64,000 nt of DNA, from contig CAKZTM010000041.1 in NCBI GenBank assembly GCA_937920555.1, positions 1 through 64,000 of the forward strand, read 5' to 3'. Made by a program: the position numbers and the translations under genes. The DNA is from an uncultured Paracoccaceae bacterium. GTDB lineage: Bacteria; Pseudomonadota; Alphaproteobacteria; Rhodobacterales; Rhodobacteraceae. Positions 54,565-61,550 of the stretch are shown here, piece after piece; within the stretch, counting starts at the first letter, position 1, and each line of letters begins with the position of its first letter. Below the pieces are notes generated by a model that was given only the letters and a program-made list of their open reading frames with translations, did not search any database and had not been told where the DNA came from.

Positions 54565-55318
54565 TTTGAAGCAAGATGCGGCGCGGGCATTGGCCTGTCT
54601 GGATTTGACCGATTTGTCAGATGGCTGCACGGCGCAGGATGTCAGTGAGCTTTGCGCGCGCGCTCAAACCCGGTTCGGGCCTGTGGCGGCGGTGTGCATT
54701 TGGCCGCAATTTGTAGCTCAGGCGGTTCGTGCGTTGAGTGCGACCCCGATCAAAGTCGCCACGGTGGTGAATTTCCCGCAAGGGGATCATCCGGCCGGCG
54801 AGGTGATCGCTTTGACCCAAAAGGCTTGCGAGGACGGAGCTGACGAGGTTGATATGGTAATCCCGTGGAAAGCGTTGTTGGAGGGGCACCCGGAGAATGT
54901 CTCAGCCCGTGTGGCGCGTGTGAAGCGTGCGGCGGATCGCTCCAAGGTGAAAGCGATCTTGGAGACCGGCATGTTGATGACGCCAGAGTTGATCGCACAA
55001 GCCACGCACGGGGCCATTGATGGCGGTGCGGATTTTGTCAAAACATCCACTGGAAAGGTGCCCATCAATGCAACGCCCGGTGCAGCGCGGGTCATTTTGG
55101 AAACCATCAAGGAGATGGGCGAGGATGTGGGTTTCAAGGCCGCAGGCGGGGTGAAAACCACCGAGGATGCAGCCGAATATCTGGCCATTGCCGATGAGAT
55201 CATGGGGCCCGGCTGGGCGGTTCCGTCTCATTTCCGTTTTGGGGCGTCCAGTGTGTTGGACGCTCTTTTGGCCACGTTGGGCGGTCAGGCGGCACCTGAA
55301 ACCGGCAAGGGGTATTGA
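54557..55318 (+). CDS. deoC: Deoxyribose-phosphate aldolase
   Basis: 253 residues. VDMVIPWKALLEGHPE contains the family lysine region, and DFVKTSTGKV the Schiff-base lysine. Splits 2-deoxyribose-5-phosphate to acetaldehyde and glyceraldehyde-3-phosphate. Stop overlaps the deoA start (TGATG). Confidence 0.94.
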   Translation: MDDLKQDAARALACLDLTDLSDGCTAQDVSELCARAQTRFGPVAAVCIWPQFVAQAVRALSATPIKVATVVNFPQGDHPAGEVIALTQKACEDGADEVDMVIPWKALLEGHPENVSARVARVKRAADRSKVKAILETGMLMTPELIAQATHGAIDGGADFVKTSTGKVPINATPGAARVILETIKEMGEDVGFKAAGGVKTTEDAAEYLAIADEIMGPGWAVPSHFRFGASSVLDALLATLGGQAAPETGKGY

Positions 55319-56625
55319 TGCTCGCGCAGGAAATCATTGCGAAAAAACGCGATGGTGTAGCACTTGCGGCGGGTGAGATCTCGCAATTTGTGCGCGGCTT
55401 GACCGATCATAGTATCGGGGACGCGCAGGCCGGGGCTTTTGCCATGGCGGTATTGCTCAAGGGCATGGATGCAGCCGAGCGGGTGGCCCTGACACAGGCC
55501 ATGCGCGATTCAGGCTCGGTTCTGGATTGGGATCTACCGGGACCGGTGGTCGACAAACACTCCACCGGTGGGGTTGGTGACAATGTATCGCTGATCTTGG
55601 CCCCTGCCTTGGCGGTATGCGGGGCTTATGTGCCGATGATCTCGGGGCGCGGTTTGGGGCATACGGGGGGCACACTTGATAAGTTTGATGCCATTCCCGG
55701 ATATCAGACCCAGCCCGATCAAGAGACATTGACGCGCGTGACCCGCGATGTGGGCTGTGCGATCATCGGCCAGACCAGCGATATCGCCCCTGCGGACAAG
55801 CGGCTTTATGCGATCCGCGATGTGACCGGTACGGTTGAGAGTATTGATCTGATTTGTGCCTCGATCCTGTCGAAGAAACTGGCGGCGGGGCTTGGGGCTT
55901 TGGTGTTGGATGTGAAGGTCGGGTCTGGGGCGTTTATGTCATCGATGGATGACGCGCGCGCGCTGGCGGCCACTTTGGTGGAGGTGGCCAATGGGGCGGG
56001 CTGCAACACCAGCGCTTTGATCACGGATATGAACGAGCCTTTGGCAACGGCGGCGGGCAATGCGCTTGAGGTCGCAAATGCGGTACGGCTGTTGCGCGGC
56101 GATGAGATCGATACCCGGCTTTGGGATGTCACGGTCGCCCTTGGCGGGGAGTTATTGGCCTCGTCCGGGCTGGCCGGGGATGCCGCGAGCGGTGCGGCCA
56201 AGATCGCGGATGCGCTGCAATCGGGTCAGGCTGCGGAGCGGTTCGGGCAGATGGTGGCCGCTCTGGGCGGGCCATCTGACTTTATGGAGACGTTTGAGAC
56301 CCATCTGGATCACGCGCCCATCATTGAGGAGGTTTTGCCGCAAAGCGAGGGTTTCGTGAGCGCCATCAACACCCGCGAGCTGGGTATGGCCGTGGTCGAG
56401 CTTGGCGGCGGCAGGCGTGATCCGTCTGACAAGATTGACTACGCGGTTGGGTTGGATTGGACCGCCGGATTGGGGCTTATGGCGGATGCTGAAACGCCGC
56501 TTTGCCGGATACATGCGCGGACCCAGGCACAGGCTGATGCGGCGCAAGCCCGCATCAGGGGTGCCTATAGTCTGAGCGAAACGCCTGCGGCAGAGTACCC
56601 GTTGGTCGTGGAGCGGTTGGTCTGA
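55318..56625 (+). CDS. deoA: Thymidine phosphorylase
   Basis: 435 residues from the ATG of TGATG. Features: [13 protein letters not shown] (phosphate-binding glycine loop near 80), [16 protein letters not shown] and [10 protein letters not shown]. Phosphorolysis of thymidine or deoxyuridine. Overlaps deoB start by one base. Confidence 0.94.
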
Positions 56626-57824
56626 TGGCGCGGGCAATCCTGATCGTTTTGGACTCTGTTGGATGCGGCGGCGCACCGGATGCGGCAGATTTCGGCGATG
56701 AGGGCTCCAACACATTGGGCCACATCATTGAGGCCTGCGCACAGGGGCGCGCCGAAGAGGGCAGAACAGGGCCTCTTCATATCCCGCACATGGACGCGTT
56801 GGGATTGGGGGCGGCTGTGCGCCTGTCCACGGGCATTCAAACCCCCGGGCTGGACGCGGTACCATCCGGGCTTTGGGGGGCGGCCACGGAAGTATCCATT
56901 GGCAAGGACACACCGTCAGGTCATTGGGAGCTTTCAGGCGTGCCTGTGCCGTTTGAGTGGCATTATTTTCCCGACACTGAGCCTGCATTTCCCGAAGATT
57001 TGGTCGCGAAATTTGTAGCGCAGGCCGGCATTCCGGGCATTTTGGGCAACATGCATTCTTCGGGCGTGCCGATCATGGAGGCGTTTGCAGCAGAGCATCT
57101 AAAGACCGGCAAGCCGATCTGTTATACCTCTGTTGATAGTGTATTTCAGATTGCAGCCCATGAAGAGGTGTTCGGTCTGGACCGGCTTTATGAGATTTGC
57201 AAAATCGGCGCTGAGATCATGCATCCCATGCGGGTGGGCCGTGTGATCGCGCGGCCTTTTGTGGGAAGTGAGGCGGATGGTTTTTCGCGGACTTCCAATC
57301 GCAAGGATTTTGCGATTACGCCCCCTGACGGCACGTTATGCAACCGGGTGGAGGCCGCTGGTGGGCGTACCTTCGGGGTTGGCAAAATCGGTGATATCTT
57401 CGCCTATTCCGGCATCTGTGAAAGCCACAAGGGTGCCTCCGATAGCGACCACATCGATTTGACCCTCACGATGATGGACACTGCCCGCGCAGGCGATTTG
57501 ATTTTCACAAATCTGGTTGATTTTGACACGCTCTACGGCCATCCCCGCGACGTATCCGGGTATGCCCGCAATCTAGAGGCGTTTGATCTGAGATTGCCTG
57601 AGCTGTTGGCCAAGATGCGGAGTGACGATCTGATGCTGATCACCGCAGATCACGGCAACGATCCCACATGGCGCGGCACGGACCACACCCGCGAGCGGGT
57701 GCCTGTGATCGGTGCGGGGCTTGGCGCACGCGAGATCGGGATTTGCGGTTTTGCGGATGTGGGTGAAACTCTTGCGGCCCATCTGAAGCTGCCGCCGGGC
57801 CAACACGGGACATCTTTTTTATGA
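56625..57824 (+). CDS. deoB: Phosphopentomutase
   Basis: 399 residues, alkaline-phosphatase superfamily. [20 protein letters not shown] carries the N-terminal Mn-binding Asp and catalytic residues; [10 protein letters not shown] and [19 protein letters not shown] carry further metal ligands. Interconverts ribose/deoxyribose 1- and 5-phosphates. Overlaps add by four bases (ATGA). Confidence 0.95.
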
Positions 57825-58801
57825 CCGATTTTCGCGCCATGCCCAAAGTTGAGCTGCATCTTCATCTTGAGGGGGCGGCCCCGCCGGAGTTCATCCGAAC
57901 CTTGGCCGCCGAACAGGGTGTGGACCTGTCGGGGGTTTTCGATGAGGCGGGGGCTTACAAATGGTCCAATTTCGTGGAGTTTCTGGGCGTCTATGAAGCG
58001 GCTTGCGAAGTGTTGCGCGGCCCCGAAGAGTTCAAGCGGTTGATGAAGGCGGTTTTGGCCGCGCAGGCCGCGCATGGAGTGCTTTACACGGAGCATTTTT
58101 TAGCCTCGGACCTTTGCGGCGACGGGAGTGCGGTTGCTTGGGGCGAATATCTTGCGGCCATGGACGAAGGCGCTCAGGAGGCGCTGGCGGAGCATGGTAT
58201 CGAGGTGCGGTTCATTCCCACCTGCATTCGTCATTTCGGGGCTGACAAGGCGGAGCATGCGGCAAGGTTGGCAGCGCAAACCGCCGGTGGACGGGTCACG
58301 GGCTTTGGCATGGGTGGAAATGAGAGCCATTTGATGCCCGCCGATTTTGCCCGCGCTTTTGAGATTGCGGGGGACGCCGGTTTGGGGCTGACCTGTCACG
58401 CGGGCGAGATTGAGGGGCCACAGATGGTCAACGCCACTTTAGATGCGCTCAATGTCACCCGCATTGGCCACGGTGTGCGGTCTATTGAGGACCCTGCGAC
58501 TGTGGCCCGTTTGGTGCGCGAGGGCATTGTGTTGGAGGTCAATCCCGGCTCCAACATCTCGCTGTCGGTTTTTCCCGATTGGGCGTCCCATCCGCTGACC
58601 AAGCTCAAAGATGCGGGCGTTAAGGTGACAATCTCTACCGATGATCCGCCCTATTTCCACACGGACATGACCCGCGAATATGACATGGCGGAACGTCATC
58701 TGGGGTGGGACGCGGCCGCCTTGCGCGCACAAAACGCTGTTGCGATGGACGCCGCCTATTGCGATGAAGAGACCAGAACCCGCATCAAAGACAGGCTTTG
58801 A
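57821..58801 (+). CDS. add: Adenosine deaminase
   Basis: 326 residues. HLHLEGA and CHAGE metal/catalytic motifs, STDDPPYF near the C-terminus, and [10 protein letters not shown] in between. Deaminates adenosine or deoxyadenosine in the cytosol. Adenosine-type family; the related adenine deaminase cannot be fully excluded. Eight bases before upp. Confidence 0.9.
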
Positions 58802-58809
58802 GGATCACC

Positions 58810-59439
58810 ATGGACCACGTCATTCACGTCACCCACCCTCTTGTTCAGCACAAGCTCACGATTATGCGCGACAAGGGCACCTCGACGGCTGTGTTTCGGC
58901 AGCTTTTGCGGGAAATTTCGCTATTATTGGGCTATGAGGTGACCCGCGATCTGCCGGTGACCACCAAAACAATCGAGACGCCTTTGACCGACATGGAGGC
59001 CCCAACGCTCAAGGGCAAAAAGCTGGCGCTGATATCGATCCTGCGGGCCGGCAACGGGCTTTTGGACGGCGTTTTGGAGTTAATCCCTTCGGCGCGTGTG
59101 GGATTTGTGGGGTTATACCGCGATCATGACACGCTTCAGCCGGTGCAATATTACTTCAAAGTGCCCAAAGATTTGCCGCAGAGGCGGGTGATTGCGGTTG
59201 ATCCCATGCTGGCCACCGGCAATTCATCTGTCAAAGCCATCGATTTGTTAAAGGATGCCGGTGCCAAAGATATTAAATTTTTATGTCTTTTGGCTGCCCC
59301 GGAGGGGATTGCACGCATGAAGGAGGCCCATCCCGATGTGCAGATCATTACGGCGGCCATAGACGAAAAACTCAACGATATCGGGTACATAATCCCCGGT
59401 CTGGGCGATGCGGGAGACCGCATGTTTGGCACAAAATAG
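58810..59439 (+). CDS. upp: Uracil phosphoribosyltransferase
   Basis: 209 residues from the ATG after GAGGATCACC. PRPP-binding motif [19 protein letters not shown] and the N-terminal [30 protein letters not shown]. Makes UMP from uracil and PRPP. Last gene of the cdd-deoC-deoA-deoB-add-upp operon. Confidence 0.95.
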
Positions 59440-59586: not shown

Positions 59587-59811
59587 ATGCGAAAGTACAT
59601 TGTGTTGGCAGTTTTGGCAGCCACGGTTGCGGGATGTAGTGATATTCCAATTGATGGTTTGAGCCGTTCTGGCTGGAACGATCCGATTTCAATGCCCCCT
59701 GCCGGTTACACGAAAGACACTTGGGTTGATGCACGAGGTTGTGTATTTTTCGCAACTCAAGCTGGTTGGGTGCCGCATGTTGGCGGCAATCTAAAGCAGG
59801 TCTGCCGCTAG
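59587..59811 (+). CDS. Small lipoprotein with VDxxGC...W.P...C module, first of three
   Basis: 74 residues. Lipobox TVAGC (Cys near 17). Contains TWVDARGCVFFATQAGWVPHVGGNLKQVCR, the same spacing of WVD..GC, GWVP and terminal C as in the two next lipoproteins. No SPOR domain. Preceded by TAGGAG. Its TAG stop is part of a TAGAGCG element. Likely outer-membrane anchored; function unknown. Confidence 0.7.
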   Translation: MRKYIVLAVLAATVAGCSDIPIDGLSRSGWNDPISMPPAGYTKDTWVDARGCVFFATQAGWVPHVGGNLKQVCR

Positions 59812-60144
59812 AGCGTCTGCCATTTATTCTAAATCACTTAGGTTGAGACCTACCGCGACGATATCCGGTAGCTAAGCCGGGCGTTGGACCCAGAAAAGCA
59901 ATGCGTTTTTGGGCCCACGCTTTCAATCCAAGATGCGGCCCATCGCGGCGGTTCGTCCCGTGGGCGGCCAAGTCTGGGCTTTGGATGGCGATCTTTTTGA
60001 ACATTTGCGATCCGGTCAAAGCCGGGTCGCCAGAACCTCACAATATTCGTCCTTTTGGATGAATTTACACCGAATTCATATGTACTCTGCCGTCCATCAT
60101 GACTTATGCTTTGCATAACTTTTGGGTTCTGCGGGATAAATACG
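59812..60144. other. Gap without convincing gene
   Basis: 333 bases. Starts with TAGAGCGTCTGCC...AATCACTTAGG, possibly a degenerate fragment of the 107-bp repeat in reverse. Inverted repeats CTACC...GGTAG and CCCAGAAAA...TTTTTGGG are present further on. The short ORFs listed on both strands (59834-60287) show no recognisable features. I see no promoter I can support. Confidence 0.4.
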
Positions 60145-60756
60145 GTGGCCACAAAACACATTTTACCAGTCATTCTGTCGCTTGCCGTTGTTGGATGCAG
60201 CGACGGCGAGGACAAAGTGACTTTCTTCTCGCTCCTGCCGCCGTCTTCGCGCGATATCGTGCAACCTGCAAATCTGCCGCCGGACAATTTCGACGGCGAG
60301 TTCTGGGTGGACCGAAACGGGTGCAGCTACATCAAAACCGGTAACGGCCAATGGGTTCCGCGCATGAACCTTGACCGGACCCGCATGTGCGACCCGTCGC
60401 TGGTGCCATCGGCCATTCAAATGGCTGAAAGTCTGGCGGGCCTTGCCCCAGAAGCAGCCGCTTCCGTTGGCGGTGACGCCGAGATCGCGGAGGTCAGTGA
60501 AGTGCGCCCCTCCCAAACCATACCGCCCACTTACGTTCAGGTCGGAAGTTACAGTGACACCGGTGTCGGGCTTGGCGTCCGTGAGAAGTTCGCCAGCATG
60601 GGCTTTCCGGTAGTGGGTCAGGATCAGGCCCCGCCTGAGGGTCGTGCGATCACGGTTGTTTTAGGCCCCTATTCAGATTCGGGTTTCCTTGAGGACGCCT
60701 TGGAAACCGCCAAATCACTGGGTCACAATGATGCTTATGTTTTCCAGAACCAATAA
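60145..60756 (+). CDS. SPOR-domain lipoprotein with VDxxGC module, second of three
   Basis: 203 residues. GTG start after GCGGGAT (ORF track begins 13 codons earlier at an ATG); lipobox AVVGC (Cys near 17). Module: FWVDRNGCSYIKTGNGQWVPRMNLDRTRMCDPS (about 53-85). A linker follows, and residues about 130-203 have a SPOR-like repeat pattern (TYVQVGSYSDTGVGLGVREKFASMGF...ITVVLGPYSDSGFLEDALETAKSLG). SPOR domains bind denuded peptidoglycan at division sites. Confidence 0.75.
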   Translation: MATKHILPVILSLAVVGCSDGEDKVTFFSLLPPSSRDIVQPANLPPDNFDGEFWVDRNGCSYIKTGNGQWVPRMNLDRTRMCDPSLVPSAIQMAESLAGLAPEAAASVGGDAEIAEVSEVRPSQTIPPTYVQVGSYSDTGVGLGVREKFASMGFPVVGQDQAPPEGRAITVVLGPYSDSGFLEDALETAKSLGHNDAYVFQNQ

Positions 60757-60869
60757 TGCGGCGCATAACACACACAAAACACAGCGTATAATTGAGTAGG
60801 CCAGTTGTTTTATCTTTTCCGTTAGCCGCGGTCTTGGTAGACTAGTGGAAAATTACGAGGGTAGTAGCA

Positions 60870-61550
60870 ATGATTTTCACTCTGAACCGCATGACTTTAG
60901 CTTGTGTCGCCGGTCTGGGACTATCTGCGTGTGACGCGCCCACGTTGGTCTCATTGCAGCCCATCGGTGCGCCGCTCCCCTCAAATTCTCAGCAGACCTT
61001 CGTGGATGCAGATGGCTGTAGCTGGTGGATCGTTGGCAATGGCGACGACTTACGTTGGGCTCCGATGACCAATTCAGTTGGCGAGCATGTGTGCGACGGT
61101 GGTGCCACGCGGTTTGATCCCCCAGTTGCCGGTGCGCTTCCGGTGGCCGGTGAGCTTCCCGCCACTGCGCCTGACACATTGGCCAGCGAACTTGACGCGG
61201 CCATTGAGGAGACAAGCGAAGCGACCGCGGTTCCGATCACGGCCGCACCGGAGGCAGAGCCGCAAGCAGAAACTGCGCCAGAGCCGGCGCCTGCGCCATC
61301 CGAGCCCGTTGCAGGCGACAGATCGTATTTTGTGCAGGTTGCGACCTTCGCCCGCGAGGCCAATGCGTCGGCCAGTGAAGCGCTCTTTGGCAGTCTTGGA
61401 TACACGATTGATTCAGGCGCAGATGTGCGCGACAACGACAATCTTTACAGATTGATCCTTGGACCTTTCCCGAACCGCGAAGAGGCGCAAAAGGCGGTTG
61501 AGCGGGCTTTCAACGAAGGCTTTGACGACGCTTTCCCATTCCGCAAATAG
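60870..61550 (+). CDS. SPOR-domain lipoprotein with VDxxGC module, third of three
   Basis: 226 residues. Lipobox LGLSAC (Cys near 21). Module: TFVDADGCSWWIVGNGDDLRWAPMTNSVGEHVCDG (about 48-82). Pro/Ala/Glu-rich linker (about 90-150), then a C-terminal SPOR-like domain (SYFVQVATFAREANASASEALFGSLGYTIDSG...YRLILGPFPNREEAQKAVERA). It follows the second gene by 113 bp on the same strand. Likely the same envelope complex as its neighbours. Confidence 0.78.
   Translation: MIFTLNRMTLACVAGLGLSACDAPTLVSLQPIGAPLPSNSQQTFVDADGCSWWIVGNGDDLRWAPMTNSVGEHVCDGGATRFDPPVAGALPVAGELPATAPDTLASELDAAIEETSEATAVPITAAPEAEPQAETAPEPAPAPSEPVAGDRSYFVQVATFAREANASASEALFGSLGYTIDSGADVRDNDNLYRLILGPFPNREEAQKAVERAFNEGFDDAFPFRK

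Follow-up and report, generated by a model that had tools for sequence, protein, structure and literature searches.

The three tandem genes that follow upp in the DNA analysed here, P1, P2 and P3, are probably a lipidated triplication, specific to this lineage, of a gene that is widespread in one copy. They lie near the end of the window (the whole analysed stretch of 64,000 nucleotides) and were singled out in an earlier note for a short module that all three share; that reading was incomplete, since the module is not peculiar to P1-P3, and what is unusual, the tripling of the gene and the replacement of a cleaved secretory signal by a lipid anchor, had gone unnoticed. We consider it moderately probable that P1-P3 are paralogous, lipid-anchored derivatives of a upp-linked protein made of the module and a SPOR domain, with P2 and P3 linking a membrane to septal peptidoglycan and P1 devoid of wall targeting. 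The features of the locus are collected in Table 1.

Table 1. Features of the P1-P3 locus, with positions in the window.
Feature	Position	Strand	Evidence or remark
deoA, deoB, add	55315-58801		ORF list; ahead of upp
upp (uracil phosphoribosyltransferase)	58810..59439	+	ORF list; conserved upstream neighbour
P1, 74 aa lipoprotein: lipobox VAGC, module, stop	59587..59811	+	Pfam LPAM_1 match
P1 lipidated Cys17, Ser at +2	59635..59637	+	
P1 module (PISMPPAGYTKDTWVDARGC...WVP...VC)	59683..59805	+	window-free profile 41.3 bits; another search 56.3 bits
Dispersed repeat copy (about 110 bp), from the P1 TAG stop	59809..59921	+	3' end approximate; five further copies aligned
P2, 203 aa lipoprotein: lipobox VVGC, module, short linker, SPOR-like domain	60145..60756	+	
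P2 lipidated Cys18, Ser at +2	60196..60198	+	
P2 module	60265..60393	+	window-free profile 45.9 bits; another search 65.7 bits
P2 SPOR-like domain	60532..60741	+	19.3 bits, sub-threshold; structure match to RlpA SPOR
P3, 226 aa lipoprotein: lipobox LSAC, module, Pro/Ala linker, SPOR	60870..61550	+	
P3 lipidated Cys21, Asp at +2	60930..60932	+	
P3 module, most divergent of the three	60960..61097	+	window-free profile 18.1 bits
P3 SPOR domain	61320..61508	+	54.7 bits, over Pfam cut-off

The lipobox reported earlier for each of the three proteins is indeed present: VAGC in P1, where it also passes the Pfam LPAM_1 model (26 bits; cut-off 20), and VVGC in P2 and LSAC in P3, which are recognized as lipoproteins by the lipobox consensus alone. 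An AGGAG-like ribosome site precedes the ATG of P1. The start of P2 is most likely the GTG at 60145, with an in-frame ATG upstream of it at 60106. Apart from one Cys inside the signal peptide of P3, each protein has exactly three Cys residues: that of the lipobox and the pair of the module. No structured RNA near the three genes was matched in Rfam, and promoter and terminator scans gave results near chance.

The shared module comprises about 45 residues and follows the pattern P..PP.....(Y/F/W)VD..GC......G....W.P.........C. Its core block, (F/W)VDxxGC...W.P...C, occurs in all three proteins as described in the earlier note (WVDARGC..WVP..VC in P1, WVDRNGC..WVP..MC in P2, and FVDADGC..WAP..VC in P3), and 41 modules agree without exception in the residues P, D, G, C, W, P, and C. 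The blocks are homologous, as had been supposed: in pairwise comparison the module pairs of P1-P3 score 80, 56, and 72 against shuffle maxima of 51, 51, and 56 (5000 shuffles each), and a profile built on 38 modules of other genomes, from which the window with P1-P3 had been excluded, ranks P2, P1, and P3, in that order, above every other ORF in the window, the next one reaching 6.2 bits. With this window-free profile all three modules also exceed the best of 6000 shuffles (12.4 bits). An AlphaFold2 model of P1 (41-row alignment) presents the module as a three-strand meander with pLDDT >90 over its core. Because both members of the Cys pair are invariant and stand otherwise isolated, the module likely holds one disulfide, as the earlier note proposed from the sequence.

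Searches of Pfam, NCBIfam, and the PDB returned no relative of the module, in agreement with the earlier remark that no named family was known for it; the fold search with the P1 module gave a best E of 2.7, and a literature search found no paper on the module or on the upp-linked protein. A phage origin was considered and rejected: comparison of the modules with PHROGs gave one weak match, for P2 alone (E 0.0004), which, followed into a phage collection, yielded a best E of 0.8, that is, chance level, and a scan of viral contigs for the module found no relative. Beyond P1-P3, no other copies of the module were found in this genome, which is 83% complete.

The C-terminal parts bear out what had been claimed, namely that P1 lacks SPOR and that P2 and P3 both end in a SPOR-like domain. 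P1 has no match to PF05036, and P3 is clear by sequence (E 7.6e-14, 52.2 bits; 54.7 bits in another search; cut-off 21). P2 stays below the same cut-off (E 0.0057, 17.4 bits; 19.3 bits in another search), and here the fold is backed by predicted structure: its AlphaFold2 model has a confident C-terminal domain that resembles solved SPOR domains, RlpA first, with a Foldseek probability of 1.00 and a target TM-score of 0.75-0.76 to the RlpA SPOR structures 6i09 and 6i05, at modest E-values (>=0.013). SPOR domains bind denuded (peptide-stripped) septal glycan, and in RlpA the glycan is contacted by Q270 and R309, the Arg contact being found in FtsN as well (PMC6895207). Judged by motif, P3 keeps both the Gln (FVQV) and the Arg (LYRLILGP); P2, aligned by its GP motif, keeps the Gln (YVQV) but shows T in place of the Arg (AITVVLGP). 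Elsewhere in this genome, four more SPOR matches exceed the cut-off. The septal placement suggested earlier for the module is arguable only for P2 and P3, on account of SPOR; nothing in P1 places it there.

The module is not restricted to P1-P3: in 291 of 397 sampled Rhodobacteraceae genera it forms the N-terminus of a SPOR protein that is usually present in one copy. A survey at the level of the order found it in 113 of 150 genomes, the matches listed being all from Rhodobacteraceae, and a class-wide sample, in which about 18 candidates per genome were scored, found it in 4 of 385 genomes, again all Rhodobacteraceae; a match outside this family (G375) was without the Cys pair and was discarded as spurious. 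At least 588 relatives were retrieved from named genomes in one scan, and the 80 kept belong to roseobacters and other Rhodobacteraceae, bar one Nocardioides marinus record. In all 80 the gene lies directly after upp, with deoB ahead in 76, deoA in 74, and add in 15. Since deoA, deoB, add, and upp stand just before P1, the triplet fills this conserved slot. As to the exceptional record (L073), titled as from an actinobacterium, its deoA-deoB-upp-module locus is typical of roseobacters and the assembly is probably mislabelled.

The relatives are proteins of about 300-550 aa with a signal peptidase I signal (typically ending in AQ), a Pro/Ala linker, a long and loosely conserved middle region (CGPQ; P.GY..AW.DDRLNP.RG), and usually a C-terminal SPOR domain. 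P1-P3 share with them the module next to the N-terminal signal and the slot after deoA-deoB-(add)-upp; the Pro/Ala linker recurs in P3, and the C-terminal SPOR of most of these relatives in P3 and, by predicted fold, in P2. P1-P3 differ in being three short lipoproteins, whereas the relatives have one copy, a signal peptidase I signal, and the long middle region, neither of the latter two being found in P1-P3. The linkers of P2 and P3 are short, and the middle region is absent. One relative, L184, has a minimal layout of module, linker, and SPOR with a cleaved signal; its match to P2 covers 179 aa and that to P3 197 aa. In one genus (g24) the upp-linked proteins (L172-L177) have divergent modules in which the loop before the Trp is shortened as in P2; several of them are also without the usual proline of W.P.

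A second group of relatives consists of short secreted Rhodobacteraceae proteins that carry the module alone (L178-L181, L186, and L187) and have no match in Pfam. They follow the pattern PPxGYxGQWWTxPxGCxYSRA...W.LI...C; their family profile matches the module profile with 97% probability in profile-profile comparison and, in the reverse search, retrieves upp-linked proteins in many genomes. Their module is a divergent version of the one in the window: PP, GC, an aromatic residue, R, W, and the late C are shared, and the module stands alone as in P1, but the D of the motif is mostly T, the proteins are secreted and not lipidated, and their genes are not linked to upp.

Of the genomes whose copies the family survey lists, this one is alone in having three, and the second copies examined elsewhere are of the stand-alone type. 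A true lipobox was found in none of 141 distinct relatives; five regular-expression matches were not counted, as they fell within, or ahead of, a signal peptide that ends in AQ. When the SPOR part of P3 was used as query, seven of the eight best matches elsewhere were module proteins (L005-L009, L011, and L012), and as it thus finds mainly upp-linked module proteins, both ends of P3 are tied to the same ancestor. A module tree (47 columns) neither groups P1-P3 nor rejects their grouping (AU p 0.36), so the case for duplication in place, which we regard as likely, rests on position. Besides a tandem duplication, such an origin would have involved removal of the middle region, a change of the signal into a lipobox, and, for P1, truncation at a dispersed repeat.

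Among the named systems, the PF05036 family (FtsN, DedD, DamX, RlpA, and CwlC) is akin to P3 by sequence and to P2 by predicted fold; the N-terminal partner domain differs, however, and P1-P3 have neither the membrane anchor of FtsN nor a match to the catalytic domain of RlpA. RlpA, a septal lytic transglycosylase, shares the layout of a lipoprotein with C-terminal SPOR, but P3 has no Pfam match to its catalytic domain. The NCBIfam RlpA model gave 34.4 bits (cut-off 201), over linker and SPOR only, and the FtsN model 20.3 bits (cut-off 107.65).

P1 ends one residue past the last Cys of the module, and its TAG stop is the first triplet of a dispersed repeat whose first bases read TAGAGCGTC.GCCATTTATTCTAAA. 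Five other copies, most of them 77-82% identical, were found on contigs C2, C94, C111, C17, and C7 of G000 (L203-L207), and some of these also seem to begin at or near ORF ends. The repeat appears to supply the stop codon of P1. As P1 ends exactly where the repeat begins, the repeat may have cut a longer gene, the alternative being that the gene was short originally; a hairpin at the stop was no stronger than in shuffles. This abrupt end is among the arguments for a decaying locus, in which a duplicated module-SPOR gene is being lost, P1 is a remnant, the SPOR of P2 is degenerating, and only P3 is functional. The sub-threshold SPOR of P2, without the glycan-contacting Arg position, would fit such decay, as would the three modules, which score weakly or are long-branched. 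Yet the frames, the lipoboxes, and the residues D, G, C, W, P, and C are all intact, the mature parts are free of stray Cys residues, no SPOR remains were found 3' of P1, and the module on its own is a viable layout elsewhere; we therefore judge decay to be unlikely, if worth keeping in mind.

In the preferred explanation, that of lipid-anchored derivatives of the upp-linked protein, mature P1-P3 would be tethered to a membrane by their lipid, and the SPOR of P3, possibly also that of P2, would bind glycan denuded by amidases at the site of division. The module, three strands locked by the putative disulfide, would act as a small non-catalytic binding domain between membrane and wall: it has no conserved set of residues suggestive of catalysis, which makes binding the better guess. 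P3 and perhaps P2 would thereby connect a membrane with the peptidoglycan of the septum, where they would display the module, whose membrane-bound form in P1 would not be targeted to the wall. P2 and P3 are likely non-enzymatic tethers between a membrane and septal peptidoglycan. By the sorting rule of E. coli, Ser at +2 favours the outer membrane and Asp at +2 can retain a lipoprotein in the inner membrane; by analogy, P1 and P2 would be directed to the outer membrane and P3 could stay in the inner one.

Alternatively, the module itself might bind peptidoglycan or another wall polymer, with SPOR adding only avidity, and the proteins would be general staples between outer membrane and wall instead of division proteins. 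The stand-alone secreted modules and two upp-linked proteins without SPOR (L037 and L049) indicate that the module can act alone. Another pointer in the same direction is Dshi_0924 of Dinoroseobacter shibae, a SPOR lipoprotein abundant in outer membrane vesicles (PMC7901474), which may or may not be the upp-linked protein. Against this, comparison with known glycan-binding folds found no similarity to the module, and we hold the staple role to be as improbable as decay. That P1-P3 are small lipoproteins of separate descent which bear the WVDxxGC motif by coincidence, as the shortness of the block and the weak P3 score (18.1 bits) could suggest, is refuted by the window-free ranking of P1-P3 first and above the 6000 shuffles, by the conserved slot, and by the SPOR part of P3 independently finding the same proteins, and we give it next to no credence.

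More tentatively, and with rather less confidence than in the paralogy of P1-P3, the module may be a new disulfide-locked binding domain of the envelope, confined to Rhodobacteraceae and defining a protein family, active in cell division or in the envelope, whose genes lie with those of nucleoside salvage; here three lipid-anchored proteins, perhaps destined for different membranes, would have taken the place of the single free periplasmic one. A domain present in about three-quarters of the genera sampled from a major marine family has neither a Pfam or NCBIfam entry nor an assigned function, and its partner SPOR binds the septal wall and its place on the chromosome is fixed. The triplet indicates that the module can be transferred to a lipid anchor and can occur without SPOR, which helps to define its boundaries.
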